Source of the DNA: Rhodobacteraceae bacterium IMCC1335
GTDB lineage: Bacteria; Pseudomonadota; Alphaproteobacteria; Rhodobacterales; Rhodobacteraceae
Direction: 5' to 3'
DNA length: 64,000 nucleotides
Assembly (NCBI GenBank): GCA_039640495.1
Contig: CP046864.1
Coordinates: 1,984,001 to 2,048,000, forward strand
Numbering within the stretch: position 1 is the stretch's first letter; the number at the start of each line of letters is the position of its first letter. The notes below the pieces were generated by a model. That model was not told the origin of the DNA. It saw only the letters and a list, made by a program, of their open reading frames with translations, and ran no database searches. Both the position numbers and the translations under genes were made by a program. This document shows, piece by piece, positions 13,921 through 43,009 of this stretch.

Positions 13921-14214
13921 ATGACAAAATATGCAATTTATACCAAGTGGTTCTGGCCGGATGGGTTGCCAAGCCTAGAGGCAATGCAAGAAAATCAACA
14001 AAATTTTAAACCAAAAACAAAGGCATTAGATGTGATCTGGTGGCGGATTGATGAGAATACACACCAATCGGTAATTATTTTTGCTTCAGAACAAGATGCC
14101 AAAGATGAGGTGGCGCTTAGAAATGAAAATCGTAAAAAAACAGCTGAAGCATCGGGCCATAAAATGGTAGAGGAAACGATGGGGCCGATAATCTCAATCA
14201 TGTCTGACCTTTAA
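13921..14214 (+). CDS. small DABB-like protein, paralogue of the 42033 gene
   Basis: A 97-residue protein preceded by a good AGAGGAG site. It closely resembles the 97-residue product at 42033: both share MxKYA-xxTKW-W-P-G, a central DENTHQSVII strand, and the C-terminal VEETMGPI-SIMS. The strand-helix pattern and size suggest a dimeric alpha-beta barrel (ABM/EthD/YCII-like) fold. Function is unknown. The pair shows that the family duplicated across 28 kb. Confidence 0.75.
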   Translation: MTKYAIYTKWFWPDGLPSLEAMQENQQNFKPKTKALDVIWWRIDENTHQSVIIFASEQDAKDEVALRNENRKKTAEASGHKMVEETMGPIISIMSDL

Positions 14215-14585
14215 CCAATTATCCTTAACTTTGGTTTCTAGATTATTAAGATAGCGCGCTTTTACTCCCAGCGTTCACCGCACCGATAGCCGTAGTCGGT
14301 TTTAAAACAGAAAACAAAGTTAACCGGCCTTGATAGGAACCGCATAATTTGCCAAAGGAATTTATCCATCATTGACGTTGAAATAAAATATTCACCACGA
14401 GATAGCGCCTTTGGGCCCCGTTTTTTGTAATAATTTCATTGCAGCCTTCTGAAGGATGAATTTTCTAGAAGCTCTTCGAAGGTCCGCGTTCGGTTGCTGC
14501 ACAGGGTCGCTGTGTCAAAAATCGTATGATCGAACAGGTGTTGCAGAGCCTGAAATACCAATGCATCTATCTGTATAGTTTTGAA
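14215..14585. other. intergenic stretch without recognised content
   Basis: No supported gene, RNA or repeat was seen here. The sequence is fairly AT-rich and may contain gene remnants. Confidence 0.5.
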
Positions 14586-14804
14586 TTATTTCATTACGGT
14601 CAACGCCCAGGGAGCCATAACCGCCAATTCTGCCATCACCTCATCGGGTGCTTTTGTCTCTATACCGAAGATAGCTACATGAGCGTGAAAACCTATGGAT
14701 TCTGCATTGGAGCAGTTACGCACATGATTGGTGCCGTGATACGCATTGTAGGCGTTTAATTTATCATCAATCGTTTTGTATTGTGTGCCCTTTGGTTCAA
14801 ACAT
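14586..14804 (-). CDS. small hypothetical protein (72 residues)
   Basis: Begins MFEPKGTQYKTIDDKLNAYN and ends APWALTVMK. Its ATG lies one base after the stop of the upstream 14806-15084 frame, which suggests a two-gene operon. It contains a mixed alpha-beta pattern and an HAHVAIFGIETKAPDEV segment. No family is recognised. Confidence 0.5.
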   Translation of the reverse strand: MFEPKGTQYKTIDDKLNAYNAYHGTNHVRNCSNAESIGFHAHVAIFGIETKAPDEVMAELAVMAPWALTVMK

Positions 14805-14805
14805 T

Positions 14806-15084
14806 TTACATATCCTTTACAATCTTTCGAATTGTTTTAGCCGTGCGCGGCCCCATTGCATTTACAAGATAGGTATAAAAAGGGCTTCCTTCAATCACAT
14901 GCGCTGCAAATCCGGTTGCGAATGCTTCCGCGGTATGGCCTTGAGTAATCCCGTTTCCAAGGCTCATGAAGTTTTTATAGTATGCTCTGAAAACGGATCC
15001 CAAGCAAAAACTGGAATGGGACACTTGATCGCCAATTATAACGCAAAAACGTTCCAAATCGATCCACGGAATCTTGCCAGCCAT
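14806..15084 (-). CDS. small hypothetical protein (92 residues)
   Basis: Starts MAGKIPWIDLERF and contains GHTAEAFATGFAAHVIEG. An in-frame TAG lies 12 bases upstream, so the gene either starts at 15084 or is a shortened remnant. Its stop directly precedes the ATG of the 14586-14804 gene. No known family is seen. It belongs to the local set of small proteins around 100 residues. Confidence 0.45.
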   Translation of the reverse strand: MAGKIPWIDLERFCVIIGDQVSHSSFCLGSVFRAYYKNFMSLGNGITQGHTAEAFATGFAAHVIEGSPFYTYLVNAMGPRTAKTIRKIVKDM

Positions 15085-15249
15085 TGCGGCATATGCCTAC
15101 AAAGCAGACCCAGTATGAATAACAGGCTGATGTAAAGTCAGAATTCGGACAAATTAGATTACAAACGGGTCGATAAATCAGCGTCAGCGATTGCGCTTGC
15201 ACAGCAATCCCTCAGACCCGCCGCGGTTTCACAGAATGCATTGGGTTTA

Positions 15250-15558
15250 TTATTCCAGCTGAAATTTGGCCTCGACAACACCATTATACGTTTGTGTTTT
15301 CGGCGATAAACTATCTCTAAAAGGAATAATTGTTTCCTCTGCCCAATCTGAAATCAAAATAAAATCATCAAGATGTTCAAAGGTTAAGCTGGCACTCATG
15401 CAGCGAGGGTCATTGCTATCCTTTACAATTTCCACAGTACATCTTCCCTTTAAATCACCATCAAATTCAGGCCACTTTTGTTTCAACACCATGATAAACA
15501 TGTCGCAACATGTTTCATCTACGAACTCATTCATAATCGTGCGGCGAATTTCATCCAT
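15250..15558 (-). CDS. small acidic hypothetical protein (102 residues)
   Basis: A GGGAGG ribosome site five bases before the ATG at 15558 supports the start. The protein begins MDEIRRTIMNEFVDETCC and has alternating beta and helical segments (KGRCTVEIVKDSND, MSASLTFEHLDDFILISD). No domain is recognised. It is one of a row of minus-strand small genes. Confidence 0.6.
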   Translation of the reverse strand: MDEIRRTIMNEFVDETCCDMFIMVLKQKWPEFDGDLKGRCTVEIVKDSNDPRCMSASLTFEHLDDFILISDWAEETIIPFRDSLSPKTQTYNGVVEAKFQLE

Positions 15559-15656
15559 CAAAGCCTCCCAGATTTGGCTGTTGAATAGCAGTGATCAAAT
15601 AGCTCCAGCCATTATTTGGCATCATCCTCACCACTATGGGTGTTGTTTAAAGGCGT

Positions 15657-15953
15657 TTAAAGATAATCGCCATAATTTACCACCGGGCCCGAAAAGGAAT
15701 GGAAAATTTCTCCGTCTTCATAAGGCTCAACATATAGCCTCATCATGTCGCTTACACGATTGTCTCTATTCATAATTTCAATAAAACTTTCAACGCTATG
15801 ATGCACGCCTATCAGAGCGTATTCACCTGTACCTAAATAAATAATATGATGCATAATATCATCAAAGGGATAATCTCTGGTATATTCTGCGCAGGCTTTA
15901 AACAGCGCTTCCTCTTGGCCCGCCTTGGCATGGAAGGGCATACAATTGATCAT
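15657..15953 (-). CDS. small DABB-like protein (98 residues)
   Basis: Begins MINCMPFHAKAGQEEALF, a common opening for ABM/DABB proteins where a first beta strand is followed by a helix that starts after AKxGxE. A second strand EYALIGVHHSVESF and the acidic tail YEDGEIFHSF follow. Fold assignment is by pattern only. The substrate is unknown. Confidence 0.6.
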   Translation of the reverse strand: MINCMPFHAKAGQEEALFKACAEYTRDYPFDDIMHHIIYLGTGEYALIGVHHSVESFIEIMNRDNRVSDMMRLYVEPYEDGEIFHSFSGPVVNYGDYL

Positions 15954-16543: not shown

Positions 16544-16822
16544 ATGAAATACGCTAGAATTGTAAATGCGGAATATAATTCAGAAGATGACTTGATTACA
16601 TTTATCGCCAAATGGGAAAAATGGTGCCCAGATAATATGCCGCCTGCTGCCAGCCGTCATATCGTAAGAACGGGCCCTACCTCCACTTTATTGATGGCAG
16701 TTTATGAAACAGAAGAAATCGCGCAAACGGCCGGTGCGCTTGTACAATCATTTTTCAAAGATGTTGCTCACCATGTGCAAGACATGATCGCGTTTGATGG
16801 TGAAGTGTTGGTTCATGTATAG
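16544..16822 (+). CDS. small DABB-like protein, paralogue of the 37933 gene
   Basis: A 92-residue protein with a GGGAG ribosome site. It matches the product at 37933: both have M-Y-R-VN-E---EDLI-F--KW-KW-PDN near the start, a central YETEEIA strand-helix, and A-HV-D--AF-GEV at the end. The fold pattern fits a dimeric alpha-beta barrel. Function is unknown. Confidence 0.75.
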   Translation: MKYARIVNAEYNSEDDLITFIAKWEKWCPDNMPPAASRHIVRTGPTSTLLMAVYETEEIAQTAGALVQSFFKDVAHHVQDMIAFDGEVLVHV

Positions 16823-17767: not shown

Positions 17768-17956
17768 TTATGATCTTTCATACCCCAGTGCCAAATTGTG
17801 ATCTGTAACACAAGTGTCCCCCGTACAGCATTCCATGATGTTGGATTTACAATACGCGCAAGCTTCGTGACCATGCACAACGATTGTTTGCAACGGAGCC
17901 GCGCAGCGTGGGCAGCGTTGAATATTGGCGTTGCTAGGATGTGCGTAGTTATCCAC
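17768..17956 (-). CDS. small cysteine-rich, probable zinc-ribbon protein
   Basis: 62 residues from a GTG at 17956, chosen because a TAAGG ribosome site lies six bases upstream and the previous gene stops nine bases before. It carries CPRCAAP, then HEACAYCKSNIMECC and GDTC, enough cysteines for one or two zinc sites. It may bind nucleic acid or protein; the role is unknown. Confidence 0.6.
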   Translation of the reverse strand: MDNYAHPSNANIQRCPRCAAPLQTIVVHGHEACAYCKSNIMECCTGDTCVTDHNLALGYERS

Positions 17957-17964
17957 AATTAGCC

Positions 17965-18147
17965 TTACGAATTGGAAAAACGCTGGTGAAGCATCTCTGG
18001 TAAGGACCAAACCCATATCGCAGATTTCACGATCCTAGATTTATTTTTCCATAAGAAAACTGAGGCCTCATAAAGCACCCATATGATAAGGGTAAGAACC
18101 AGTGCAAAGATGATAACTCCAGACAATCCCATTGTCGTGCTGCACAT
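17965..18147 (-). CDS. small membrane protein (60 residues)
   Basis: Starts MCSTTMGLSG with an AAGGGG site, followed by a long hydrophobic span (VIIFALVLTLIIWVLYEASV) and a basic tail. It heads the run with the zinc-ribbon gene and the 17297 gene. The function is unknown; the short length leaves some doubt. Confidence 0.5.
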   Translation of the reverse strand: MCSTTMGLSGVIIFALVLTLIIWVLYEASVFLWKNKSRIVKSAIWVWSLPEMLHQRFSNS

Positions 18148-20945: not shown

Positions 20946-20948
20946 ATT

Positions 20949-24378: not shown

Positions 24379-24762
24379 TTAAGAGGGCAACTTAAGTTCC
24401 CAGACCTTAGTAATGTGACTTATTTTCTCACCATTGAAATGAATTGCATACACATAATCTGTCTTCATAAACATCGGCTTTGGACCGATAATCACGTTGC
24501 CCCGTATTTCAGCATAAATCAGCACAATATCCTTATCGCGATCATGAGCTTCGGCTTTCACTTCAACTTCAACATTGTCATCAAACATTGCTGACGCCTC
24601 TGTCATCCAATCGCAATAAATATCTAAACTGTCTACGCCAGCAAGGGTTTCAGAATCGGTCTCAAAGGACGCGTCCTTGTGACAATATGCCTGGCAGTCT
24701 TTCCAACCTTTGCCATAGTCACATGCTTCAAAAAACGCTCGCGCCGTGTCTAGCCTAGTCAT
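24379..24762 (-). CDS. SnoaL-like (NTF2-fold) small protein
   Basis: 127 residues starting MTRLDTARAFFEACDYGKGW. The pattern (an N-terminal helix with an HKDASFETDSETLAG loop, then beta strands VEVEVKAEAHDRDKDIVLIY and VYAIHFNGEKISHITKVWEL) is that of polyketide-cyclase/SnoaL-like proteins. It could be an enzyme or ligand binder; the substrate is unknown. It stands alone between the iron transporter and the aminotransferase. Confidence 0.75.
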   Translation of the reverse strand: MTRLDTARAFFEACDYGKGWKDCQAYCHKDASFETDSETLAGVDSLDIYCDWMTEASAMFDDNVEVEVKAEAHDRDKDIVLIYAEIRGNVIIGPKPMFMKTDYVYAIHFNGEKISHITKVWELKLPS

Positions 24763-27634: not shown

Positions 27635-28160
27635 ATGCCTTTAAGCGGCATCCGTGTTATTGAATTCTGTCATATGGTCATGGGGCCAACTTGTGGTATG
27701 ATCCTAGGTGACCTCGGTGCCGATGTCATAAAAGTAGAACCGTTAAGTGGAGATACAACCCGCCGACTAGAACATAACGGCGCCGGTTTCTTCGCATCAT
27801 ATAACCGCAATAAGCGCTCCATTGCGCTTGATTTAAAATCGCCTAGGGGGATCGAGGCTGCTAAAAAATTAGCAACCGGTGCCGATGTTATAATTGAAAA
27901 TTTTAGGCCCGGTGCCCTAGAAAAACTTGGACTTGGCTACACAGAACTGAGCCGAAATAATCCGGGCCTAATTTATTGTTCGTTAAAAGGATTTTTAGAG
28001 GGTCCCTACGCAAATCGAACAGCACTTGACGAGGTGGTACAGATGATGGCGGGTCTTGCTTATATGACAGGACCAGAAGGTAGGCCTTTACGCGCTGGAG
28101 CATCTGTCATTGATATCATGGGCGGGATGTTCGGGGTTATCGGCATCCAAGCGGCATTGG
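27635..28160 (+). pseudogene. CaiB/BaiF family CoA-transferase cut by an IS3 element
   Basis: The 5' half of a type III CoA-transferase: LSGIRVIEFCHMVMGPTCGM, ADVIKVEPLSGDTTR, NRNKRSIALDLKSPRG, ENFRPGALEKLGLGY, and the ALDEVVQMMAGLAYMTG segment with the nucleophilic aspartate. The family has about 400 residues; only about 175 remain, and the frame runs into the IS3 left end at 28161. The missing 3' half is not on the other side of the IS. It would have moved CoA between carboxylic acids, perhaps feeding the divergent lyase. Confidence 0.88.
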
Positions 28161-28215
28161 TGTCTTAGCCCCCTAGAACTGTGCCAGTATATTTTGGCAA
28201 AGGGAGTAAGGAAAC

Positions 28216-28503
28216 ATGGCTCGAAAGCGTTATTCTGATGAAGATGTGTTGAAGTTGTTACGCGAGATTGATGTTCATTTACATGATGGTTTGGACGTTG
28301 TGAGTGCGTGTCGCAAAGCTGGGATTTCTGATAAGAGTTATTATTACTGGCGTAAGAAGTTTGGAGGCCTTTCTCGTTCGCAGGTTTCTGAGATGAAATC
28401 GCTCAAGAAAGAAAACGAGCGCTTGAAGAAGATCGTCGCTGACTTGCAGTTAGACAAGGTGATCCTGAAGGAGAGCCTTGATCATCTAAAGCCGCGGGCC
28501 TGA
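28216..28503 (+). CDS. IS3-family OrfA (helix-turn-helix protein)
   Basis: 95 residues, MARKRYSDEDVLKLLREID, with a helix-turn-helix (SACRKAGISDKSYYYWRKKF) and a C-terminal leucine zipper (MKSLKKENERLKKIVADLQL). It binds the IS ends and forms the N-terminal part of the transposase. Its stop overlaps the orfB frame. Confidence 0.92.
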   Translation: MARKRYSDEDVLKLLREIDVHLHDGLDVVSACRKAGISDKSYYYWRKKFGGLSRSQVSEMKSLKKENERLKKIVADLQLDKVILKESLDHLKPRA

Positions 28504-29348
28504 CGCGGGCTCAGCTTCGTCAGGCTATTATTCATACGCGTCAAAAGCTGGATATTTCTGAGCGGCGTGCTTGCGCTGTTCTGGATGTAGCCCGCTCAAG
28601 TCTGCGCTATCAAGTCAAACCAGTAGATGACAACGAACTACGCTTGGCGATGATCCGGCTGGCCAAGCAATATGGGTGGTATGGTTATAGGAAAGTCACA
28701 GCCCTGCTGCGCATGGAAGGCTGGCGTGTTAACCACAAGAGGATCGAGCGCTTATGGAACGAAGAAGGTTTACAGCTGCCGCGCCGGCACAAGAAGCGCA
28801 AACGGCTTTATCATAAAGACAGCTCCATCATCAGGCTGCGGCCCACACATCCCAATCATATTTGGGCGATCGACTTTGTGCACGATAAGCTTAGCAATGG
28901 GCGCAGCTATAAAATGCTGACGGTTCTAGATGAATATACCCGTCAAGCGCTCTGCGTGGCAGTGCGGTCCAAAATGAATGCGAACGATGTTTTGGACGGA
29001 TTGCACCCACTGTTTATGAAACACGGCAAGCCAGAGTTTATTCGCTCTGACAACGGACCTGAGTTCATTGCCACGCATCTACAGGACTGGCTGAAGAGGA
29101 TCGGCATCAAACCAATGCAAATCTATCCAGGCAGCCCTTGGGAAAATGGGTATAACGAACGCTTTAACGGCACCTTGCGAAAAGAAGTGCTCAACGCAGA
29201 ATGGTTCCACACCACACGGCAAGCCCAGGTCGCTATCAATGTTTGGCTTAGGCAATACAACCAGTTCAGACCTCACCATGCATTGAACATGCGCCCACCC
29301 GTCCCAGAAACCTTATTAGAGAAACCAAAAATCAATGGACGAATATAG
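28500..29348 (+). CDS. IS3-family OrfB transposase (DDE integrase core)
   Basis: About 282 codons when read from the overlap with orfA; ATG codons occur only from 28644. The HTH_21-type region (YGWYGYRKVTALLRMEGWRV) precedes the rve core. Catalytic residues are D in WAIDFVHDKL, D in RSDNGPEFIA, and E in NGYNERFNGTLRKE. It is probably made by frameshifting from orfA or by internal start. It appears intact, so the element may be active. Confidence 0.9.
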   Translation: MTRAQLRQAIIHTRQKLDISERRACAVLDVARSSLRYQVKPVDDNELRLAMIRLAKQYGWYGYRKVTALLRMEGWRVNHKRIERLWNEEGLQLPRRHKKRKRLYHKDSSIIRLRPTHPNHIWAIDFVHDKLSNGRSYKMLTVLDEYTRQALCVAVRSKMNANDVLDGLHPLFMKHGKPEFIRSDNGPEFIATHLQDWLKRIGIKPMQIYPGSPWENGYNERFNGTLRKEVLNAEWFHTTRQAQVAINVWLRQYNQFRPHHALNMRPPVPETLLEKPKINGRI

Positions 29349-29359
29349 GGGACTGGACA

Positions 29360-29548
29360 CTCAACTATAGCATCGATACTTGGTATTCGACTGATTTGAA
29401 CAATTTCACCAGTGTCTAGCTCTATAAGACTCCAAGTAATATCTGGCTTGTTCATAATTTCGGCCAAACGCTCAAGTGCCTTTTTAAATTCAACTGAGCA
29501 ACCATGCTTAGGTGTATATTTTATCACCGACCAGACTGCATTTTCCAT
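29360..29548 (-). pseudogene. small DABB-like gene truncated by the IS3 element
   Basis: Starts MENAVWSVIKYTPKHGCSVE and continues through the helix FKKALERLAEIM and strand ITWSLIELDTGEIVQI. After about 63 codons it reads into the IS right end at 29359. Comparable small proteins in this region are about 95 residues, so the C-terminal third is missing. The lost part does not occur left of the IS. Confidence 0.7.
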
Positions 29549-29800: not shown

Positions 29801-30139
29801 TCAAACTTTCACGTCCGCCCAAACTTGATAAGGATCACGACCGGAACATTCATTTTTATTGATGTGCATAATAATCGGATAGGCCACAGTTATTAAGTTT
29901 TCGTACATGCCATTTTCCGTAAGCGTAATCATGATATCCTCCTCCGTTTCCGCCTCCCAATGACAAAAGAAGAAATCATCTGTTCCCACCCATGTTGCAA
30001 TGCATTGCGCTTTAGGAAAATTCCATCGGTCTGCCCATTCGTAATCTGTACGAACCGTATTCTTTAAACTTTCAAAAGTATTTTTCTTTGCCACTTCGTT
30101 TTTATACGTGTGTATTGCCAGAAATGTTTTGCGCGCCAT
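29801..30139 (-). CDS. small DABB-like protein, paralogue of the 41516 gene
   Basis: 112 residues from ATG at 30139, preceded by GGAG at a good distance. It shares with the 41516 product the motif DDFFFCHWEAE (DDFFFCHWYAE there), an upstream W-G, and a C-terminal PI-M-I strand. The pattern of two strands with long helices suggests a dimeric alpha-beta barrel. The FFFCHW motif could mark a ligand pocket; that is inference. Function unknown. Confidence 0.7.
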   Translation of the reverse strand: MARKTFLAIHTYKNEVAKKNTFESLKNTVRTDYEWADRWNFPKAQCIATWVGTDDFFFCHWEAETEEDIMITLTENGMYENLITVAYPIIMHINKNECSGRDPYQVWADVKV

Positions 30140-30293
30140 CAGCATTCTCCATTAATTTTTTTCAGAATAACGCAGCGCAGGAATTCGTAGAGCAATTATT
30201 TAAGGTTTTTGATAGTTTAGCGTAAATCAAATTTAATACGGCCACGCAAGGTTCCTGCATAGCCGTATTAAGTTTCAATGTTTAAACTTGAGG

Positions 30294-31192: not shown

Positions 31193-31432
31193 CTACAGTT
31201 TAAAGCCTCGAAGGGCAGCAAGATTATAGATACCAATCATAAATGGGCCTAGTACGCTGATATAGCGGTTATGCCTTCCAGCCCAATGTTCTGTAGAAAG
31301 ACGCCTCGCAGACGCATGCTTGCCCATCGTGGGCTTTTCATGCCCCAAGCGCGCAGCATTATCACCATTCGGCACCACTTTATTCATGATACCAGTCTCT
31401 GGGCCTATGAGGCCGCTAAGTAATTCTTTCAT
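31193..31432 (-). pseudogene. degraded phage holin (3TM-type)
   Basis: The minus strand starts MKELLSGLIGPETGIMNKVV, continues DNAARLGHEKPTMGKHA, and later GPFMIGIYNLAALRG. This order resembles holin_3TMs proteins of tailed phages (a KELL-GLI-PVTG start, a D-AARLAHE-ATM segment and a GWRPFIGW helix), but the middle is altered, so it is probably decayed. Copies of its start occur at 39228-39419 and 39846-39894. Confidence 0.5.
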
Positions 31433-31482: not shown

Positions 31483-31821
31483 ATGAGCTTCATTCAAAAA
31501 TCCCGCGCTGTCATGGATAATTGGAACAAAGAAGAATTTAAAAAAATTCATCATCCGGATCACATGTTCATTCGCGAAACTGAACTTGTTACATTAGATG
31601 ACTGGGCGGATAAAATGGAAAAATGGGTCGTCAGTGGTGATTTTCTCAAAGATACAAAAGACCGAAGAAAAACATCTTTAGTGCATGAAAATGAACATGT
31701 ATGTGAATTACGGTGGGAAGGAGACGGCGATCTAATTACTCTCGTTGTTTTAAAAAAGAAAGGTTTGGCTTGGCGGTCAAACGTAAACCGAGTGCCTTTA
31801 GAAGACTTAGAGGAAGTTTGA
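31483..31821 (+). CDS. small NTF2-like protein, paralogue of the 39469 gene
   Basis: 112 residues after a strong AAGGAGAG site. It starts MSFIQKSRAVMDNWNKEEFK and contains HMFIRETELVTLDDWADKME, then SLVHENEHVCELRW. The helix-helix-strand order fits NTF2/SnoaL-like proteins that handle small hydrophobic ligands. The 39469 product is clearly the same protein. Even their leader DNA is shared, so both came from one duplicated segment. Function unknown. Confidence 0.8.
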   Translation: MSFIQKSRAVMDNWNKEEFKKIHHPDHMFIRETELVTLDDWADKMEKWVVSGDFLKDTKDRRKTSLVHENEHVCELRWEGDGDLITLVVLKKKGLAWRSNVNRVPLEDLEEV

Positions 31822-31869: not shown

Positions 31870-32166
31870 ATGAATTCACCCATTGCCCGCATTTTGCATT
31901 TCAGTTTTGAAACTGCAGAAGATTTAGAATTATAGGTTTTGAAATATCAAACCGAAACCAGTGAGCTTGCACAAGAGGCTATCCAGCGAACGCTTATTAA
32001 AACTGACGAAACCTCCTTGGTAATATGTAATATTTATCGCAATGAAGAAGATGCAGATATTGTTTTTGAAAGGCTTTCAAAATGGTCTGGTACAGTAAAA
32101 GCGGCTCGCACTTGGGATAGCTTCAATCTCACGGGTGAAGTTGTTTTTTCAGAGCCACAATTTTAA
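31870..32166 (+). pseudogene. DABB-like gene with in-frame TAG
   Basis: ATG at 31870 has an AAGGAG site and gives MNSPIARILHFSFETAEDLE, then TAG at 31933-31935, then an intact frame (VLKYQTETSELAQEAIQRTL, SLVICNIYRNEEDADIVFER) to 32166. The joined product of about 98 residues has a dimeric alpha-beta barrel pattern. One base change separates it from a full gene. A shorter protein could start at TTG 31939 but would lose the first strand. Confidence 0.65.
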
Positions 32167-32251
32167 ACCTGCGGCTTACTTCTTAGGTCCCAACCCAATG
32201 GCAAAGGCTCCGCTCATCGCTCCCGCGACAGTCACAGAGAAAGCCATTGTT
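32164..32251 (-). pseudogene. 3' end of a phage-like gene, copy 1
   Basis: The minus strand reads SVTVAGAMSGAFAIGLG and a stop. It resembles ATVTGAMTGAFAVWLGHEK at 40546-40749 and the shorter copy at 39816-39851. It begins at the very end of the plus-strand gene before it. Confidence 0.5.
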
Positions 32252-32929: not shown

Positions 32930-33066
32930 TTACAGTTTCTATTCTTCCTAACCACTTACAATCAAAGGTGAGGCTACCATGAGGGTTATCAAACGCGTCC
33001 AAAATAACTTCCGCTGGAACTTTTTCAGCGTGAAAGGCTAACCAAGCTGAGCGCCTTCTAGGACAA
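32930..33066 (-). pseudogene. terminase large-subunit fragment, copy 1
   Basis: The minus strand reads EGAQLG, a stop, PFTLKKFQRK, then after a frameshift VILDAFDNPHG. The copy at 42393-42599 reads EGAQVGQPIKLMKFQRKFIL followed by DVFDNAHG. This stretch resembles the N-terminal region of phage terminase large subunits that precedes the P-loop. Both copies lose similarity at the same point. Confidence 0.55.
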
Positions 33067-33208
33067 CCTATTAATGCTCAAAAAATCTGCCTAACTTTTG
33101 ATCTTATGACCATTATTTTTAACCGTCAAAAAAACAAGTTGAAAGAAAGCTTTAATAGGGATCTGGCGAACGCAATCACTTAAATCCTAAATTTGACGTA
33201 GTAAAATC

Positions 33209-33579: not shown

Positions 33580-33654
33580 GGGGATTATATTGAATCACAA
33601 GGTATTTAGCCAAAAATTAATAGGAGGTTTCAATCGCTGATTTAAACATAAATG

Positions 33655-34083
33655 ACCGGACTGAGTTATCAGCCTCTAAACACCAACACCCTTTAAAGCT
33701 GCTCCAGCCCCTCAATCTACCTTAGCCGCGCCATTAATCGAGCAGAGAACAGAGTCCGATTGGTTTCGCGATTTTCGACGGAAGACAAGAATCTGGCGCC
33801 GCTCAAACCTATCGAGTGCCGATAGAAACGGTTTTGCAATTTGCACCCAGCGTTTATTCTCAATCATCATCCCCAAGTCATCCAGCTCACTCTGAGCAGC
33901 GTGGATGTCAGCGTCCATCTTTACAATTTTCGCTGATAAGGTGACGTCCAGATCACGCCTGCCTGACCTCGCGCTGGCGCGGGCGAACTGGTGCCTGATT
34001 ATTATCTCAGCCTCGCTACCTAGCTCCATACCAGCAGGCAATGGAATGCGATCACTGATGGCACAAACACGTCCTATTTCCAC
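33655..34083 (-). pseudogene. phage-like gene of unknown type, 3' end decayed
   Basis: A frame from 34083 (MEIGRVCAISDRIPLPAGME) to a stop at 33712, with charged helical content (AKIVKMDADIHAAQSELDDL). Beyond the stop the DNA still reads GAGAALKGVGV, a stop, then RLITQ, which matches ARSALMAVGVKGLIAQPAH at the end of the 43011-43196 fragment. So both are remnants of a shared gene end. The family is not recognised. Confidence 0.4.
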
Positions 34084-34361
34084 AAAGGTAGACTTGTTTT
34101 GATCTCGTTGTTTTTCTTTTTCTGACTCTGTTTTAAGCTTGCCATATATGTGTCAATTTAAAGGTATATCAGAAATTTTTCTCCTTTGTTTTACAAAACT
34201 CCTATACGATGGTCTCTCATGTTCTCATTTGGTTTTAAGTAGAAGCTTTTTCGTAAACGCGAAGAAAGTTTAATGTGGATGCAGGGTTCTTGCTCCTGGC
34301 TTTAAGCGAGTGGACTACCCCCCGCCTTTATTTTAAAACGATACAAAATCTAGAGGCGTCC

Positions 34362-37043: not shown

Positions 37044-37365
37044 TGGCTTAGCCCCCTAAAACCATGCCATCAGTTAATGGTCACAGGAGGTTTTAAGGAT
37101 GGCACGGAAACGGTATTCGGACGAAGATGCTCTAAAGGTTTTGCGTGAGATTGACGTATATTTATATGATGGTCTGGATGTCGTGAGTTCCTGCCGTAAG
37201 GCTAGGATTTCAGATAAGACCTATTACCATTGGCGTAAGAAGTTTGGCGGTTTAGTACGCTCCCAGCTTTCAGAGATGCGTGCTCTTCGTAAAGAGAACG
37301 AGCGTTTAAAGGAGATCCTCACAAAGCTGCAGCTCGACAAGCTGATCCAAGTAATTGGATTTTAA
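37044..37365 (+). mobile_element. truncated IS3-family element, orfA only
   Basis: Left end TGGCTTAGCCCCCTAAAACC is related to the complete IS at 28161. OrfA (37099-37365) begins MARKRYSDEDALKVLREIDV and keeps the HTH and zipper, but similarity ends near 37348 (LDKLIQ), and the frame closes at 37365. OrfB and the right end are absent, so it cannot move by itself. Confidence 0.85.
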
Positions 37366-37561: not shown

Positions 37562-37885
37562 ATGGCAATTATTGCAATGTGCATGCCCATATTGGCCGGC
37601 AAAAAAGAACAATGGCAAGCAATGATGGATCAAGTAACCAATGATCCAAACTTTGCAGCATCAAGAGAAGATGCAGGCGTACACGAAAGATCATTTTTGC
37701 AAGAGACACCAGCCGGTGATTTTGTAATCTTAACCTTCGAGGGACACGACCCTGAAGCGAGTTTTGCTAAGATAATGCAAAACATGCCAGCAGACTTTGC
37801 GGAATTTGCAAAAGATGTACACGGGTTAGATGTAAATTCTCCACCTCCACCAATGCCAAAACTTGTTTTCGACAGTAGAGGTTAA
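37562..37885 (+). CDS. small ABM/DABB-like protein (107 residues)
   Basis: Starts MAIIAMCMPILAGKKEQWQA after an AGAGGAA site. The order strand (IIAMCMPI), helix (GKKEQWQAMMDQV), strand (GDFVILTFEGHDPEASFAKI) fits a dimeric alpha-beta barrel. The tail is proline-rich (SPPPPMPK). It is followed 47 bases later by the 37933 gene and then a GFA gene, all on the plus strand. Function unknown. Confidence 0.72.
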   Translation: MAIIAMCMPILAGKKEQWQAMMDQVTNDPNFAASREDAGVHERSFLQETPAGDFVILTFEGHDPEASFAKIMQNMPADFAEFAKDVHGLDVNSPPPPMPKLVFDSRG

Positions 37886-37932: not shown

Positions 37933-38229
37933 ATGGCATATGGACGAGTTGTGAACGTTGAATGTAAATCTAAAGAAGATTTGATCATGTTTAGAAATAA
38001 GTGGTCCAAGTGGTGGCCTGATAACGTGCATAACGCGCTAAGCAGAACCAGCATCAGAACATCAGAAAATTCACTTTTGCTATTGGCGACTTATGAAACT
38101 GAAGAAATCGCAGACGAGGCAAAAGCCATTATTGAAACCTTTTTTGAAGCTGTGGCAGAGCATGTGCATGATATATTCGCATTTCATGGCGAAGTGATGG
38201 ATGATCGGCCTAATGCAGTTATGGAATAA
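37933..38229 (+). CDS. small DABB-like protein, paralogue of the 16544 gene
   Basis: 98 residues after a clear AAGGAG site. Shares VN-E---EDLI-F--KW-KW-PDN, LLLLATYETEEIADEA and VAEHVHDIFAFHGEV with the 16544 product. It has the same fold pattern and similar length. It probably forms an operon with 37562 and 38238. Confidence 0.75.
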   Translation: MAYGRVVNVECKSKEDLIMFRNKWSKWWPDNVHNALSRTSIRTSENSLLLLATYETEEIADEAKAIIETFFEAVAEHVHDIFAFHGEVMDDRPNAVME

Positions 38230-38237: not shown

Positions 38238-38693
38238 ATGCAGATGCCAGACACCAGAGTTGTAAATAAAGATGAGCCAATAACAGGTGGATGCCTCTGC
38301 AAAAAAATAAAATTTCTATCTGCCAGTAAACCTAAATGGATTTCTATCTGCCACTGCAGAATGTGCCAAAAAGCATATGGGAATCCCTCAGCAATTTTCG
38401 TAGCTTTTGAAAAAGGTTATCTAGAATTTGTATCTGGATCACCAAAATTTTATAAATCTTCTGATATTGCAAAAAGGGGTTTTTGCTCAGACTGCGGCAG
38501 TCCGGTAATATTTTCCTACGAAACTCTAGATGCAGTTTTTGTTGGAACCCTCGACGATCCCGAAAATTGGCAACCAAATGGCTGTCATCTTGGGATTGAA
38601 AGTCAAATACCGTGGGAAATAATACATGATAGCTTACCTCAATATCGAACCGAGGACGATCCAGAATTCAAGGAAGTTAATTCCAAACAATAA
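38238..38693 (+). CDS. GFA-family (CENP-V/GFA) zinc protein
   Basis: 151 residues with the GFA zinc ligands: GGCLCKKIKF, CHCRMCQK and FCSDCGSPV. The family includes glutathione-dependent formaldehyde-activating proteins, but many members have unknown roles. Length and motif order are normal, so it looks functional. It lies eight bases after the 37933 gene. Confidence 0.85.
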   Translation: MQMPDTRVVNKDEPITGGCLCKKIKFLSASKPKWISICHCRMCQKAYGNPSAIFVAFEKGYLEFVSGSPKFYKSSDIAKRGFCSDCGSPVIFSYETLDAVFVGTLDDPENWQPNGCHLGIESQIPWEIIHDSLPQYRTEDDPEFKEVNSKQ

Positions 38694-38823
38694 AAAACCC
38701 CTGCAGAGCAAAAAACTGTCTGGGTCGTAAAAATCGTAGCTGGGATTGTCTCCCCCCTGCAACCCGGTAGTTTTTAAAAACATCAGTTTTGGAAGAGACA
38801 AGAAATGAAATATTGCGGATTGA

Positions 38824-39000
38824 GAAAGAGCATATTGGTACAAAATAGACGACAATCATTCAGGTTCTTTTACGCTTTATCCAGATAAAAAAGCCTATTT
38901 ACGAGACATGGCTGGATTAAATGAATTTTGCGGAAAAGCCACATCAGACGGCATTACAATGGTCGATTTGGTAGAGAGAACGGTACTAGGAGAAAATTGA
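38824..39000 (+). pseudogene. remnant of a small DABB-like gene
   Basis: An open frame without start codon, preceded by a stop, encodes YWYKIDDNHSGSFTLYP, then KAYLRDMAGLNEF and ITMVDLVERTVL. This parallels the middle and end of the 13921/42033 family (WFKVDENTHQSVIIY, MVEETMGPIL). The first third of the gene is unreadable, so it is a decayed copy. Confidence 0.45.
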
Positions 39001-39028
39001 GTGCCGAGACCGAGCTATAAACAAAAAA

Positions 39029-39056
39029 AGCCCCCGCAGAATTGACTGAGGGGGCT
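39029..39056 (-). terminator. stem-loop with a T-run on the minus strand
   Basis: AGCCCCC pairs with GGGGGCT across a 14-base loop. On the minus strand it is followed by a run of T, as in an intrinsic terminator. No minus-strand gene is evident upstream, so it may end an unseen small transcript or be a relic. Confidence 0.5.
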
Positions 39057-39227
39057 GTAAGAACAGTATCTGAGGGCAGGTAGGAACCGAGATACTTTCG
39101 TCTTGCAAAGTTTAGGCTTTGAGAACAAAGGTAGAACATGGTGCTGCTTTGGTCAATATGAAATAATCACATTGTTTTAAATTGTAGGTGCGGACACGTC
39201 GGAATTATCGCTGTGAAGGAGCTGATT

Positions 39228-39419
39228 GATGTGTTTGGGGGAGATATTGAGCTATTAATTATTAATTTCAGTAGGCACCTTAACAGCGACGCTCACAGGC
39301 ACCTGCTTGTCCATCGTGGATACTCAATGCGCTAGGGGCGTAGCATTATCGCCTCTCGGCATCACTTCATTAACTATACCAGTAACTGGGCGACAAAGGC
39401 CGCTAAGTAATTCTTTCAT
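39228..39419 (-). pseudogene. degraded phage holin, copy 2
   Basis: The minus strand begins MKELLSGLCRPVTGIVNEVM and continues GDNATPLAH, then a stop. It matches the 31193 holin remnant over its first 30 residues, and the two lie in the same position in front of paralogous NTF2-like genes. Confidence 0.55.
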
Positions 39420-39468
39420 TTTAAGAGCCTTTTGTTACGGTTTGGAAAACTAAAAAGGAGAGATGCAA

Positions 39469-39813
39469 ATGAGCTTCAGCGAAAAAATCCAAGCCGTTAT
39501 GCTAAATTGGAATGAAGAAGAATTTAAAAAACTTCACGATCCTGAGTTCATGTTCATTCGGGATACCGAACTTATAACGATGGATGATTGGATAACTAAT
39601 ATGGAAGAGTTTTCATCAAGTGGAGCCTATGCAAAAAGGCAAGACCAAAGCCGTAGAACATCCTTAGTTCACGAAAATAGACAAGTTACCGAATGGCGTT
39701 GGGAAGAAGGCGATGAACTGGTTACGCACGTTTGCATGAAGAAAAAAGGGCGTGCTTGGCGTTCAATAGTTTATCGAGAAACAATAGAAGATTTCAAAGA
39801 AACTTTAAGCTGA
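39469..39813 (+). CDS. small NTF2-like protein, paralogue of the 31483 gene
   Basis: 114 residues from 39469; the ATG two codons earlier is less likely because the 31483 copy starts at the matching MSF. Strong AAGGAGAG site. Shared motifs: AVM-NWN-EEFKK-H-P, FIR-TEL-T-DDW, RRTSLVHEN, and K-KG-AWRS. It has an NTF2/SnoaL-like pattern. Function unknown. Confidence 0.8.
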   Translation: MSFSEKIQAVMLNWNEEEFKKLHDPEFMFIRDTELITMDDWITNMEEFSSSGAYAKRQDQSRRTSLVHENRQVTEWRWEEGDELVTHVCMKKKGRAWRSIVYRETIEDFKETLS

Positions 39814-39815
39814 TT

Positions 39816-39851
39816 ACTTTCTATGCCCGAGCCAAACCGCAAAGGCACCTG
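39816..39851 (-). pseudogene. 3' end of a phage-like gene, copy 2
   Basis: Minus strand TGAFAVWLGHRK then stop, matching the C-terminus at 40546-40749. It directly joins a holin start on its upstream side, so two phage genes were recombined here. Confidence 0.5.
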
Positions 39852-39894
39852 TCTGGGCCTATAATGCCGCTAAGTAATTCTTTCATTTTGGGAG
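39846..39894 (-). repeat. start of the phage holin gene, copy 3
   Basis: The minus strand encodes MKELLSGIIGPD, the holin opening seen at 31432 and 39419, then crosses into the GAFAVWLG fragment. The shared DNA includes the leader AAGAATTACTTAGCGGC region read on the other strand. Confidence 0.5.
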
Positions 39895-39942
39895 CCTTTG
39901 GTTAAATTTTATTTGCTAAAAATTTTCAAGAGGAAGAACAAA

Positions 39943-40227
39943 ATGCCAAGCATGTTAGTCACAGTAAAAATCTCAAAAGGTTTTTAAACTTGGACCAAGA
40001 TGGCAAAAAAAATGGAAGAGTTTTCTGGATCAGAAGGAGCAAAGATTATTTGGGCTGCCACCAATCCAGATGAAACTTCCGTCTATGTAATGATGGACGT
40101 CCCAAACCCTGAGTTCATGCAGACATTTGGGCTTAGAGAAGATGTCAAAAAAGCCCGTGAAGAAGCAGGCGCTGATGTCTCATCGACCACAATTATTACG
40201 CCAATCGGTGATTACTGGTTGGGTTAA
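39943..40227 (+). pseudogene. DABB-like gene with in-frame TAA
   Basis: ATG at 39943 with AGAGGAAG upstream gives MPSMLVTVKISKGF, then TAA at 39985-39987, then an intact frame (TWTKMAKKMEEFSGSEGAKI, DETSVYVMMDVPNPEFMQTF) to 40227. The product of 94 residues resembles the next gene at 40254. One base separates it from an intact gene. A restart at ATG 40000 would lose the first strand. Confidence 0.65.
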
Positions 40228-40253
40228 AGCCTATTTCTGAGGAGAAAAATAAA

Positions 40254-40541
40254 ATGGGTATGCGATTTCTAGCCTCGTTTAAAAAAACGTGCAGTTTTGA
40301 AGATTGGCTAAAGCTAGTAGACAGCCTCAAGCCGCAAATGGACAAACATGGATTAAAGTTAATTTTCGCAACTGAAAGCGAGGACGGCACTTCAATCTAT
40401 GATGTTGGAGAGGTTGCAACTATGGAAGGCGTTGAAGCATTTATTTCTGATCCAGAGGTAAGACAAATGCGCATTGATGCTGGCGTTGACATCGACAGTC
40501 AGGAAATAATTTCTGCTGTAGGAAAATTTAACGTATTTTAA
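40254..40541 (+). CDS. small DABB-like protein (95 residues), relative of the 39943 gene
   Basis: Strong GAGGAG site. Starts MGMRFLASFKKTCSFEDWLK. Shared with 39943 are the F-W start helix, G-K-I-A----D-TS-Y and AG-D-----II---G. The alternation of strands and helices fits the dimeric alpha-beta barrel fold. It follows its broken relative by 26 bases, suggesting a tandem duplication. Function unknown. Confidence 0.75.
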   Translation: MGMRFLASFKKTCSFEDWLKLVDSLKPQMDKHGLKLIFATESEDGTSIYDVGEVATMEGVEAFISDPEVRQMRIDAGVDIDSQEIISAVGKFNVF

Positions 40542-40545
40542 TTAA

Positions 40546-40749
40546 TTACTTCTCATGCCCCAGCCAAACCGCAAAGGCACCTGTCATGGCACCCGTCACA
40601 GTCGCGTTCAGCGCAGTGGCTTGGGATGTCACGGCTCTGGCGGTAGCGTCATAAACCAGTTTAAGGCGTCCAGATATGCGTAGTACATCACGGCCATCAT
40701 AACGCGCGGCAGTAGTTTCCGCACCAATATGCGTTCCCTCGCGTTTCAT
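40546..40749 (-). pseudogene. phage-like gene fragment ending GAFAVWLGHEK
   Basis: A 67-residue frame MKREGTHIGAETTAARYDGR, ending NATVTGAMTGAFAVWLGHEK. Its C-terminus recurs at 32164-32251 and 39816-39851, always in the minus orientation directly behind a plus-strand small gene. It may be the best-preserved copy of a phage lysis-region gene, but I do not recognise the family. Confidence 0.4.
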
Positions 40750-40826
40750 GGTGAGTAGCTGGCTGACTTTCTTAATAGGTCAGCCGATTTTTGTTTCCAT
40801 TAAATAGCTGGGGTTATTACCTTAAA

Positions 40827-41372
40827 CTATTGGGGATTGAACTCAATTATTTCACAGTTTTGAGGCTTAATTCCTGTCAATGCTCGAATGAAGTTACCAT
40901 GAGAAACAATTGCCGTAGAGTGAATACTTTCACGCCTGATATATTCGGCAAACCCGTTCGCTCTCTCCATCAAAACCTCTTCAGGCTCAACTGCAATCCC
41001 TCGGTGATCTTTTTCTCCGTCATGCCACCAACATTCATCCAAATGATCAAAACTCAGATGGGGAAACTCTTTTATAAGTTTATCTGGCGGGCTTCCTACA
41101 TCGCAGCTGTTGACGAGTTGCTCACGTACTACCGCGTTAATTTGAAACGGCAATCTATTTTCAAAAATCAATTGAGCGGTTTGCAATGTCCTAGTGAAGG
41201 GCGAAACGATAAGGTGTTTAATGTCAAGTTTTTCAACTTCAATTCGAGCCTGCTTAGCCTGAGCTTCTCCAACTTCTGTAATAGGAGCGTCGAATATCAT
41301 GGGGTCTGGCTTATTTGGATCGTGAACCGCATTGAAGGCTGATTGAGCGTGTCTAATGAGATAAATTGACAT
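40827..41372 (-). CDS. histidine phosphatase (phosphoglycerate-mutase-like) family protein
   Basis: 181 residues. The catalytic motif is YLIRHAQSAFN near the N-terminus (RHG type with RHA), followed by VSPFTRTLQTAQLI and the second histidine in AIVSHGNFIRALTG. An AGGAAA site precedes ATG 41372. It is a phosphatase of unknown substrate, standing between phage relics and small genes. Confidence 0.85.
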   Translation of the reverse strand: MSIYLIRHAQSAFNAVHDPNKPDPMIFDAPITEVGEAQAKQARIEVEKLDIKHLIVSPFTRTLQTAQLIFENRLPFQINAVVREQLVNSCDVGSPPDKLIKEFPHLSFDHLDECWWHDGEKDHRGIAVEPEEVLMERANGFAEYIRRESIHSTAIVSHGNFIRALTGIKPQNCEIIEFNPQ

Positions 41373-41515
41373 ATTTGATATTTCCTAGCGCCAAGAGATT
41401 GCTGTTTTGAATAAGAGAGTTTTGCCTAGGAACTTAAAAAGCCTGAGCATCATCCGCTCCCACCTGCGTTACGAATGTCATCAAAAAAAATTCTATCAGG
41501 ACTGTGCGCATGGGT

Positions 41516-41839
41516 TTAATTTTCTTTCACCATCTCTTCAGCTGTTTTGTCAGTGATTTTGTCATGCGCCATATATATGGGCATTTCATTGGGTAATGTA
41601 TTCATCAGCGTATTAAACCCAACTTTGTCCAAGTGATCGATGATAGCGTCCTCATCTTCCGCATACCAATGGCAAAAGAAAAAGTCGTCATTTCCGCGCC
41701 AATGACTCAACATTTCCGCTTTTTCACCTTTCATCATTTCAAAAATCTGACGATCAGTCATGCCTATTGAAGCATCTTCAAAAGCCTGCTTTGCATCGTC
41801 GTCGAAAAATGCATGCGTACACATAAAATGTTTCTTCAT
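41516..41839 (-). CDS. small DABB-like protein, paralogue of the 29801 gene
   Basis: 107 residues after a strong GGGGGAT site. Starts MKKHFMCTHAFFDDDAKQAF and contains DDFFFCHWYAEDEDAIIDHL and a late MPIYMAHDKI. The DDFFFCHW motif is shared with the 29801 product. Pattern and length fit a dimeric alpha-beta barrel. Function unknown. Confidence 0.72.
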   Translation of the reverse strand: MKKHFMCTHAFFDDDAKQAFEDASIGMTDRQIFEMMKGEKAEMLSHWRGNDDFFFCHWYAEDEDAIIDHLDKVGFNTLMNTLPNEMPIYMAHDKITDKTAEEMVKEN

Positions 41840-42032
41840 TATATCCCCCTGTTTGGCTCAGGATAACACGAGCCAAAAATATTTGGAGTCTCAAATGTCT
41901 CAGAAAGCCTTACACAATCCTGCGGCATATGAAGATTAGAAGGTGATCGAAACTCAAGCCGACTTTTTAAAGTTGTCAAAAAGACCCTTGCTGTGGTTTC
42001 CTAGAGTTATCTTTTACAAAAGAGAGATTGAA

Positions 42033-42326
42033 ATGGCGAAGTATGCAGTTCACACAAAGTGGTCTTGGCCAGAAGGCGTTCCAAGCGCAGAAACCATGCA
42101 AGAATGGCATCGTGAGCATAGATCAAATACTAAAGCAGAAGACATTATCTGGTTTAAGGTTGATGAAAACACGCATCAGTCAGTTATTATCTATTCTTCT
42201 GAGGCAGACGCTCAGGAAGAAAACGCAAGGCGTCAAGAAATGCGCAAACAAACAATTAAAGAAACTGGTCACTCAATGGTTGAAGAAACTATGGGACCAA
42301 TTCTTTCTATTATGTCTGAAGCCTAA
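42033..42326 (+). CDS. small DABB-like protein, paralogue of the 13921 gene
   Basis: 97 residues from ATG 42033 (MAKYAVHTKWSWPEGVPSAE), exactly the length of the 13921 product; the longer frame from 41943 is rejected because the paralogue starts here and an AGAGAG site precedes. Shared motifs are DENTHQSVII and VEETMGPILSIMS. Function unknown. Confidence 0.78.
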   Translation: MAKYAVHTKWSWPEGVPSAETMQEWHREHRSNTKAEDIIWFKVDENTHQSVIIYSSEADAQEENARRQEMRKQTIKETGHSMVEETMGPILSIMSEA

Positions 42327-42392
42327 TCCACCGATTTTAACTCTGGTTATCCCATAGGCTCGTTGGTACGGTCATATCTTCTGCGCTCATTG

Positions 42393-42599
42393 CCCAAGAG
42401 CCATGGCCAGCGCCATCGAACCATCAATCTTTGCGCAGCTTTTTGATTTATGCAGCTTGCGGTTGCCCGCGGGATCGCTTTGCTCAAGCGCTCCAGATTC
42501 TGCCATGCGCGTTGTCAAACACATCCAGAATAAACTTGCGCTGGAACTTCATCAGCTTGATCGGCTGACCAACTTGAGCGCCCTCTGGGAATAGACAGT
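42393..42599 (-). pseudogene. terminase large-subunit fragment, copy 2
   Basis: The minus strand reads EGAQVGQPIKLMKFQRKFIL, then DVFDNAHG, then becomes interrupted by stops (WSA, stop, AKRSRGQPQAA, stop). It resembles the region before the P-loop in phage terminase large subunits. A more decayed copy is at 32930. Confidence 0.6.
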
Positions 42600-42724
42600 A
42601 AGCCTCAATAAATACACAAATCTTTTGGCCGCATGTCATTTTGGTATTATCTTTCGTGGCGTAATATTTGACAGAAACGGATCACTGCTTTTCTATGATT
42701 GAAGTCACAACTAGGGAGAAAAAA

Positions 42725-43009
42725 ATGTCATACTACACAATTTCGCACTGGGAAGCCGATGAATGGACACATGAAATGGAAGCAATTGCTAAAGATAAAT
42801 TTGGCCCAATGATTATGGCTGTGGGTGCTAGTTCAGTCGATTTTGTTAAAACCGGGGACAATACAATGTGCGTTGTAACCAAGTATAAAGATGAAGCAAC
42901 TGGAACGGCTGCTCTGGCAAAGATTGCTGAAATTCGAGGTCAAGCCGCATCAACGCTGCCGGTCAGGATGGTTTCTGACGTTAAAGGTTCTGCATTCGTA
43001 AGTATGTAA
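42725..43009 (+). CDS. small DABB-like protein (94 residues)
   Basis: ATG 42725 follows a GGGAG site (MSYYTISHWEADEWTHEMEA). The order of strand, helix, strand (SVDFVKTGDNTMCVVTKY) and helix (EATGTAALAKIAEIRGQA) is that of ABM-like proteins. A phage-gene fragment lies two bases downstream in the opposite direction. Function unknown. Confidence 0.72.
   Translation: MSYYTISHWEADEWTHEMEAIAKDKFGPMIMAVGASSVDFVKTGDNTMCVVTKYKDEATGTAALAKIAEIRGQAASTLPVRMVSDVKGSAFVSM

Follow-up and report, generated by a model that had tools for sequence, protein, structure and literature searches.

Small antisense genes of a marine temperate phage lineage and probable decayed prophages in Rhodobacteraceae bacterium IMCC1335

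The DNA analysed here, referred to as the window, is a 64-kb stretch (positions 1,984,001 to 2,048,000) of the single-contig genome of Rhodobacteraceae bacterium IMCC1335 (3,735,584 bases), in which many small genes are clustered among fragments of phage genes. These small genes are very likely morons of one temperate phage lineage, for the most part surviving in decayed prophages of the window. "Passengers of mobile DNA" had been one of the suggestions of a first-pass annotation made from the sequence alone; the suggestion was borne out and could be made specific, the passengers being antisense cargo of a single phage lineage. Direct support for this reading comes from the phage-gene stubs in the window, the positions of the small genes in slots between phage genes, the exchange of families between those slots, two folds, and purifying selection on several of the genes. 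Coordinates given below are those of the window; L and G numbers are labels for fetched loci or contigs and for genomes or records, respectively, G000 being the source genome.

In the proposed mechanism, the carrier would be one lineage of temperate HK97-type marine phage, and cargo would be inserted, nearly always antisense, at junctions among the genes for holin, lys2TM, lysX, portal, large terminase (TerL), small terminase (TerS), and HNH. Deletion would then have trimmed the phage genes to terminal stubs, with 12 of the 16 supported small genes staying intact. Each cargo gene is proposed to be expressed in the lysogen from its own signals and to be kept by the host as an advantage. As a best guess at the biochemistry, the modelled products may bind or convert small metabolites in a barrel or cone pocket.

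Phage-gene stubs beside the small genes

The repeats that flank the genes at 31483, 39469, and 39943 were identified as the start of a minus-strand holin gene plus the end of lys2TM, a name given here to the small gene preceding the holin in phage record C72C1, in which 28 nt separate the annotated holin from an adjacent lys2TM relative. Truncated or frameshifted phage genes stand in phage order in the window. From left to right, the first block contains a holin stub (31295..31432, minus strand; aa 1–47 of 126, 66% identity, E 5e-14), an NTF2-like cargo gene of family F5 in the holin/lys2TM slot (31483..31821, plus strand; 84% to L055:3627-3977, in the same slot), an F2 cargo gene with one in-frame stop (31870..32166, plus strand; 87% to L053), and a lys2TM stub (32179..32244, minus strand; aa 47–68 of 68, 59%, E 2e-4). 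These are followed, again on the minus strand, by a TerL stub in two pieces (32973..33100; aa 5–47 of 504, E 2.5e-5) and a divergent TerS gene that is near full length in the alignment (33652..34116; 59% over aa 2–156, E 5e-51).

The second block begins with a plus-strand cargo gene (37562..37885) that is 95% identical to its counterpart in L063 and occurs in four viral contigs, all of this phage lineage. Next on the plus strand are an F2 small alpha-beta gene assigned by pair identity and profile (37933..38229), a GFA-family gene that is a possible further passenger (38238..38693; PF04828, E 2e-20), and a 5'-truncated F1 gene (38821..39000; 85% to L057:10886-11164). A minus-strand holin stub (39312..39419; aa 1–36, 67%, E 1e-10) then precedes a second F5 NTF2-like gene in the holin/lys2TM slot (39469..39813, plus strand; 97% to an L052 gene in the same slot). 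At 39817..39886 (minus strand, repeat D5), the last 14 aa of lys2TM abut the first 11 aa of holin, the holin piece alone having E 0.12. Two plus-strand genes of DUF3764 type follow, one with a single in-frame stop, TAA (39943..40227; 89% to L063:13241-13558), and one assigned by pair identity, family alignment, and profile (40254..40541), and after them a minus-strand lys2TM copy spread over two frames (40549..40742; aa 4–68, pieces of 93% and 83%). The right end is formed by an F4 cargo gene, here on the phage strand (41516..41839, minus; 97% to L051), an F1 cargo gene found at the portal/terminase junction in phage contigs (42033..42326, plus), a TerL gene reduced to its ends (42346..42639, minus; aa 1–46 beside 444–497 of 504, pieces of 91%, 76%, and 75%), an F1-related cargo gene in the TerL/TerS slot with a profile link to F1 (42725..43009, plus), and a TerS stub (43014..43091, minus; aa 131–156 of 156, 69%, E 2e-6).

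Because such stubs lie between the small genes and the cargo sits in phage junctions, the window is taken to hold at least two, probably three, decayed prophages. On the sequence evidence, at least two decayed copies stand in tandem, at 31.2–34.3 kb and 37.5–43.1 kb, and a third, older copy is probably present at 13.9–18.6 kb. The latter interval contains an F1 small alpha-beta (ferredoxin-like) gene (13921..14214, plus; 60% to 42033, profile E 5.7e-45), a small gene whose relatives lie antisense between the terminase genes of phage contigs (15250..15561, minus; 46% to L059/L083), a small gene with relatives in close genomes only (15657..15953, minus; L007, L008, L046), and an F2 small alpha-beta gene, the paralogue of 37933 by pair identity and profile (16544..16822, plus). 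The 15250 relatives occupy the TerL/TerS slot in seven contigs, several of which are near-identical. Also within this interval, both on the minus strand, are relatives of a gene near the integrase end of phage contigs (17297..17746; 57% to L063:15563-16012, 149 aa, E 2e-51) and of a small phage-contig gene that is zinc-ribbon-like by eye (17768..18016; 84% to L052:2544-2741). The integrase reference gave no match in the window. Integron-like cassettes were dropped as an explanation when the flanking repeats were recognised as holin and lys2TM stubs; attC and IntI were not searched for.

The phage lineage and the slots of its genome

When viral contigs were scanned with F1, nine contigs were matched, all with portal or terminase genes. 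Scans with F4, 37562, and 39469 matched only contigs of the same lineage, and the DUF3764-type gene matched only its own source contig. All small-gene scans together gave 10 distinct viral contigs, every one of which contains the TerL or portal gene of the lineage. The lineage portal is a PF04860 protein, its large terminase belongs to PF20441/PF03354, and the intact holin of L058 matches PF11351 (GTA_holin_3TM-type) with E 5e-19. Combining several contigs gives the order AAA25–DUF6362–HNH–TerS–TerL–portal–lysX–lys2TM–holin; the integrase lies on the opposite strand in this composite, and L083, the fullest contig, has protease, capsid, and tail genes between portal and lysX. In a search of 295 family genomes, four distant portals were found (36–45%), and the source genome contained no portal at E ≤ 1e-60. 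Portal remnants could be recognised as aa 1–129 in L056 and L057 and as aa 1–85 in L015.

The best 80 of 238 loci related by portal search were fetched for a survey of the junctions. The TerL–portal junction could be measured in 75 of the 80 contigs, of which 52 have a gap of no more than 200 nt and 23 a wider one. The inserts listed there include F1, F2, and NTF2-like genes, and also genes for membrane proteins, DNA-binding proteins (by eye), and other small proteins, so that this slot is not fold-restricted across the clade. Of 83 contigs, 21 contained members of the small families, 65 in total and up to ten in one contig, and 61 of the 65 are antisense to TerL and portal. This count leaves out L060–L063, L065, L084, and L115 as copies of counted contigs, and the profiles behind it were built partly from the same contigs; near-identical viral contigs are not independent, and the junction, member, and slot counts overstate the number of events. 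Junction and profile counts replaced an earlier method, a greedy gene call with a conservation filter, which missed most of the antisense genes and returned 54 of 65 conserved open reading frames of at most 200 aa on the minus strand, several of them apparently shadow frames.

One slot holds different families in different contigs, and one family occupies different slots. Thus the holin/lys2TM slot is filled by NTF2, DUF3764, or F2 genes; the lys2TM/lysX slot by F2, F4, DUF1330-like, or 29273-like genes; the portal/TerL slot by NTF2, DUF3764, F2, or F1 genes; and the TerL/TerS slot by NTF2, F1, 15250, 7410, or DUF3303-like genes. An F4 entry for the TerL/TerS slot, in L051, is uncertain, as L051 shows no portal.

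Stubs beside small genes were also found elsewhere in the source genome. At L156 (2,918,001 to 2,938,000), the order is holin stub, DUF3764 gene, lys2TM, F2 gene, and lysX stub, continuing with TerL aa 1–35, a DUF3303-like gene, two other genes, an NTF2 gene, and a TerS stub. L159 has TerS aa 109–154, an F1-related gene, TerL aa 13–35 and 452–503, and a DUF3764 gene. An integrase relative occurs together with TerL aa 1–30 in L158, and L157 gave weak HNH and lysX matches only. In G002, a same-genus genome taken to be that of Rhodobacteraceae bacterium SB2 (Paracoccaceae, Rhodobacterales per NCBI), TerL survives as aa 1–48, 441–481, and 484–501. Phage reference genes were detected at four of nine other small-gene loci (TerL in three) versus one of 20 control regions of 20 kb. 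The matching control, L175, gave matches to integrase, HNH, and TerS and none to TerL, holin, or lysis genes. None of the 20 control regions contained a small-family gene, a comparison that is partly circular since the regions were placed away from known matches. By eye, L175 (G000 2080001-2100000) is another integrated element, with a serine recombinase, a tyrosine integrase, and a primase-like gene, and without small genes of profiles A2–A7.

Families, folds, and selection

The open reading frames named by the first-pass annotation were all found in place, and its count of about eighteen small genes, intact or broken, agrees well with the ~19 candidates obtained here, of which 16 have family support. 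Profiles built from relatives recovered 12 window members with E ≤ 7.2e-8, namely 13921, 16544, 29801, 31483, 31939 (the 31870 gene), 37933, 39463/39469, 40000 (the 39943 gene), 40254, 41516, 42033, and 42725, and the 38821 fragment is a thirteenth family member. Of the others, 15250 and 37562 are related to genes of phage contigs, and 29273 has a weak relative (34%); among the loci fetched, relatives of 15657 are confined to close genomes, and none was found for 33205/33229. All five proposed paralogue relationships, including the neighbours 39943/40254, proved genuine, with identities of 60% (13921/42033), 56% (31483/39469), 54% (16544/37933), 34% (29801/41516), and 29% (39943/40254). An own ribosome site, which had been ascribed to every gene, held for 15 of 17 starts (AGGAGG score of at least 4 of 6, versus 24% of 1,122 plus-strand ATGs) and failed for 33229 and 15657.

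The five profile searches gave 33 places in the 3.74-Mb genome, 12 of them inside the 64-kb window, where an even spread would give 0.6; the cluster is therefore not due to chance. The same families also occur elsewhere in the genome, in five more clusters or pairs and as five single genes, and the orientation of the small genes in the window is mixed. The description of the cluster as a "local expansion" was thus misleading, as most copies are not tandem duplicates and lie in separate phage junctions, with the same families at other loci of the genome. Direct tandem duplication was rejected, repeated flanking DNA being found, at the repeat-search settings used, only for the pair 31483/39469 (75–77%, repeats D3 and D4).

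The proposed fold types were upheld, by models and Foldseek, for the two families modelled (13921/42033 and 31483/39469), and partly for others through profile links (42725, 37933, DUF3764, and SnoaL/DUF4440). The AlphaFold2 model of F1 (42033), computed as a monomer, has the order beta-alpha-beta-beta-alpha-beta (mean predicted local distance difference test, pLDDT, 93.8; predicted template modelling score, pTM, 0.82). Foldseek matched it to NosA, SnoaB, IsdI, and dimeric ferredoxin-like marine proteins, with query template modelling (TM) scores of 0.42–0.67 among the 50 matches listed and three matches at E ≤ 0.001. In size and predicted strand order, F1 resembles NosA (4za1), SnoaB (3kg0), and the marine proteins 2od4, 2od6, and 2op5; it differs from these in that no sequence relation is found and TM is 0.53–0.67. 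The F5 model (31483/39469) is NTF2-like, with helices packed on a curved sheet (pLDDT 91.6, pTM 0.81); 54 PDB structures were matched at E ≤ 1e-3, and most of the 50 listed have the NTF2/SnoaL/KSI fold.

In profile comparisons, 42725 was linked to F1 with 96% probability and F2 to F1 with 82%, and no link was seen between DUF3764 and F2 or between F4 and DUF3764. Neither 13921 nor 42033 matched a Pfam ABM-like family. The 39943/40254 family is like DUF3764 (PF12594) by profile, 13 of the 14 members of its alignment matching at E ≤ 1 (best 2.7e-12), whereas 40254 itself gave no match. Similarly, the predicted topology of 31483/39469 and family-level profile matches resemble those of SnoaL and DUF4440 proteins, SnoaL_2 and DUF4440 each matching 10 of 25 F5 alignment members (best 8e-9), although 31483 and 39469 themselves match no Pfam family. 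The F4 genes 29801/41516 scored 19.6 and 17.6 bits with the SCO4226-like family PF14026, below its cut-off of 28.5. Against PDB sequences, F1 gave no match at E ≤ 1, F2 likewise had no solved sequence relative, and DUF3764 and F4 gave weak, scattered matches only. Searches of NCBIfam and PHROGs with 10 proteins each gave nothing better than E 0.002, and none of the phage collection records matches 42033; in a set of 5.8 billion proteins, 186 homologue clusters were found for F1 (42033) and 26 for F5 (39469). The F1 proteins look like mosaics, in which first halves are shared and two different second halves occur (P0026, P0054, P0061, and P0080 versus P0001 and P0008), a pattern that suggests recombination within the gene.

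Ratios of nonsynonymous to synonymous substitution rates (dN/dS) were computed for 18 pairs, of which four were saturated and one, for 15657 (1.15, with misplaced codons), was not used. Values against relatives were 0.03–0.18 for 42033, 41516, 37562, 31483, 42725, 16544, and 15250, among them 42725 at 0.03 (to L038), 41516 at 0.05, 15250 at 0.06, and 37562 at 0.08, the figure for 16544 resting on five changes; 17297 and 17768 gave 0.33 and 0.35. Mostly intact cargo beside stubbed phage genes suggests that these genes are useful to the bacterium, with low dN/dS as an indirect indication. In the interval 37300–43500, nine terminator-like sites were counted versus 5.9 expected (standard deviation, sd, 2.6).

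Several observations weigh against surviving, host-maintained phage cargo. Four of the 16 supported genes in the window are broken or truncated, 31870 and 39943 by one in-frame stop each, along with 38821 and 29273. The counterparts of 13921 in G002 and in G003, the second same-genus genome, are partial with a stop, and those of 31483 are partial with stops; confidence in the moron reading is slightly lowered because cargo genes decay in these sister genomes. Between 39469 and its L052 relative there are no synonymous and five nonsynonymous changes. Promoter-like sites in the interval 37300–43500 numbered 10, versus 12.0 expected by shuffling (sd 4.1). No terminase or lysis stub was found in the left part of the window, and four of the 65 small genes of the phage contigs, including a relative of 41516, are on the phage strand. 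Finally, no capsid match was found in G004 and L051–L058, which are the viral contigs most similar to the window, and several of them have broken phage genes, so that these records may represent fragments of proviruses and not virions.

Alternative readings, significance, and neighbouring features

The moron anatomy leaves room for a cargo that serves conflict between phages, by superinfection exclusion or anti-phage defence, in place of small-molecule chemistry. Many known morons exclude other phages, and an arms race would be consistent with the diversity of alleles in a single slot; none of the 10 proteins tested had a PADLOC match, however, the fold matches listed include many small-molecule enzymes and ligand binders, and the families occur also in genomes without this phage. 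We regard a role in conflict as unlikely, though it fares best among the rivals.

It is less likely still that the small genes belong to the host itself, as normal components of genomic islands in marine alphaproteobacteria that phages pick up at times, and that the window is mainly such an island, into which prophages also inserted. Such an origin would fit the genomic F1 loci, some of them short, of which three of 37 have phage reference genes nearby and 34 do not. It would also fit a cluster of about seven small alpha-beta or NTF2-like genes within 7 kb in HTCC2255 (L021 8344-15418) and a run of such genes in the uncultured alphaproteobacterium of L032, neither of which contains a phage reference gene. 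These loci also count against a phage source for the families in general: the HTCC2255 and L032 clusters indicate that the families also live outside this phage, and for the same reason phage origin is claimed only for the window, L156, and L159. The left part of the window is moreover conserved in two same-genus genomes, 12.5–28.2 kb being syntenic in SB2 and G003, mostly at 87–90% (79–80% around 14.0–14.6 kb). At 31–34 and 39–43 kb, however, the genes sit in phage junctions beside stubs, and the viral contigs that carry small genes belong to one phage lineage. The HTCC2255 cluster adjoins an aminotransferase relative of the one at 25226–26143 of the window (match by eye).

The carrier is very unlikely to be a satellite of the phage-inducible chromosomal island (PICI) type, in which integrase, terminase, portal, and lysis genes are kept, capsid and tail genes are lost, and a helper moves the element: G004 and L052–L055 do share a portal-to-lysX interval of 1.2–1.3 kb without capsid match at 97–100% portal identity, with integrase genes in G004 (cut by the record end), L052 (broken), and L055, but in G004 (24.1 kb; TerL, portal, and holin matches unbroken, 1.2-kb interval) the interval begins with the start of the prohead protease, by eye against L083, which fits an internal deletion, portal or terminase is broken in several contigs, and the same cargo families occur in related contigs that have capsid genes, capsid matches being found in L066, L068, L074, and L083, each with one gene of the small families. 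Directly beside the phage element of G004, at 3054–6340, a second integrase with AlpA-like and primase-like genes was noted by eye; this neighbourhood may be a shared integration hotspot.

Morons thus remain the preferred reading. Morons of temperate phages, a concept attributed to Hendrix, are defined in part by a promoter and terminator of their own. As cited in PMC2784084, they are additional genes situated between those of the phage; they differ among closely related phages and in some cases lie on the opposite strand. Like morons, the genes of the window and contigs sit between neighbouring phage genes, vary among relatives, and are mostly on the opposite strand; unlike those described, they number up to ten per contig, occupy several packaging and lysis junctions, and belong to a few alpha-beta and NTF2-like families of small proteins that are exchanged between slots. 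PMC7744054 describes the loss of lytic genes from incomplete prophages and the retention of beneficial ones. The window likewise resembles cryptic or "grounded" prophages under domestication (PMC7744054; see also PMC6379469), in which genes for lysis, portal, and terminase are preferentially lost while those that benefit the host persist, but it differs in that its phage genes survive as terminal stubs among largely unbroken cargo genes, a pattern repeated both in tandem and at other places in the genome. Slot-exchanged antisense cargo that mostly outlives its decayed prophages is a variation on these known moron and cryptic prophage themes. No description of the system was found in the literature searched, and one may still be in print; in PMC8224337, on Rhodobacteraceae prophages, the sought terms were confined to the reference list.

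A broader and rather doubtful extension combines four parts, judged jointly. The lineage would carry from host to host, slot by slot, a library of small genes whose products are largely limited to alpha-beta and NTF2-like folds; each junction would take one or two interchangeable antisense genes, so that an infection delivers up to ten; the usual fate of the prophage would be collapse into a moron island and not loss; and the HTCC2255 and L032 clusters would be the last stage of collapse, with the phage sequence gone. If this were true, unexplained clusters of small-protein genes in other pelagic alphaproteobacteria would represent the end stage of prophage collapse.

Prophages reduced to such stubs could escape standard detection. 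As context, a survey of the RCA roseobacter cluster, to which the source genome may not belong, reports no prophage except one incomplete (PMC10675870). Stubs beside intact small antisense genes provide a searchable mark, and the prophage reading would explain concretely where some small orphan genes of ocean bacteria come from. Slots that are interchangeable across the lineage allow the exchange of genes between phages to be counted. If both phage and host maintain these proteins under purifying selection, removal of an island should give a phenotype.

Other small genes of the window are a possible NTF2/SnoaL-like gene (24379..24762, minus; SnoaL_2 E 0.0038, under the cut-off), a probable truncated small alpha-beta gene (29273..29548, minus; 34% to L063:12687-13043, E 9e-6), and an F4 gene, weakly SCO4226-like (29801..30145, minus; PF14026 E 0.001, under the cut-off, and profile). 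An insertion element, IS3-type by eye (28156..29360, plus), is 97–99% identical to open reading frames in L056/L057 and has copies in G003; it appears to cut short a CoA-transferase-like gene (27635–28168). A truncated second copy lies at 37044..37365 (plus; repeat D2, 77% to the L056 frame). The segment 29.4–35.6 kb is common to SB2 at the same place, and at least 29.4–30.7 kb is common to G003; from the 37.4–43.9 kb block, the piece around 42033 is on another SB2 contig and, in G003, between two insertion-element copies.

A small cysteine-rich phage-contig open reading frame follows the second block (43757..43924, minus; 68% to L063:14685-14855). Its peptide, CTCGRS...CIGW, stands alone at 43754 and in L063 and forms the N-terminus of a DoxX protein at 30294–30836. 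Further to the left, a 122-nt inverted repeat (9407–9528 and 12371–12492, 94% complementary) has one arm overlapping the end of tRNA-Arg(ccg) (12477–12553), and a serine-hydrolase-like and a cyclase-like gene (by eye) lie between its arms. Just left of the 13921 gene, at 13618–13767, are ~16 to 18 copies of the 8-nt unit GGSAACAC.

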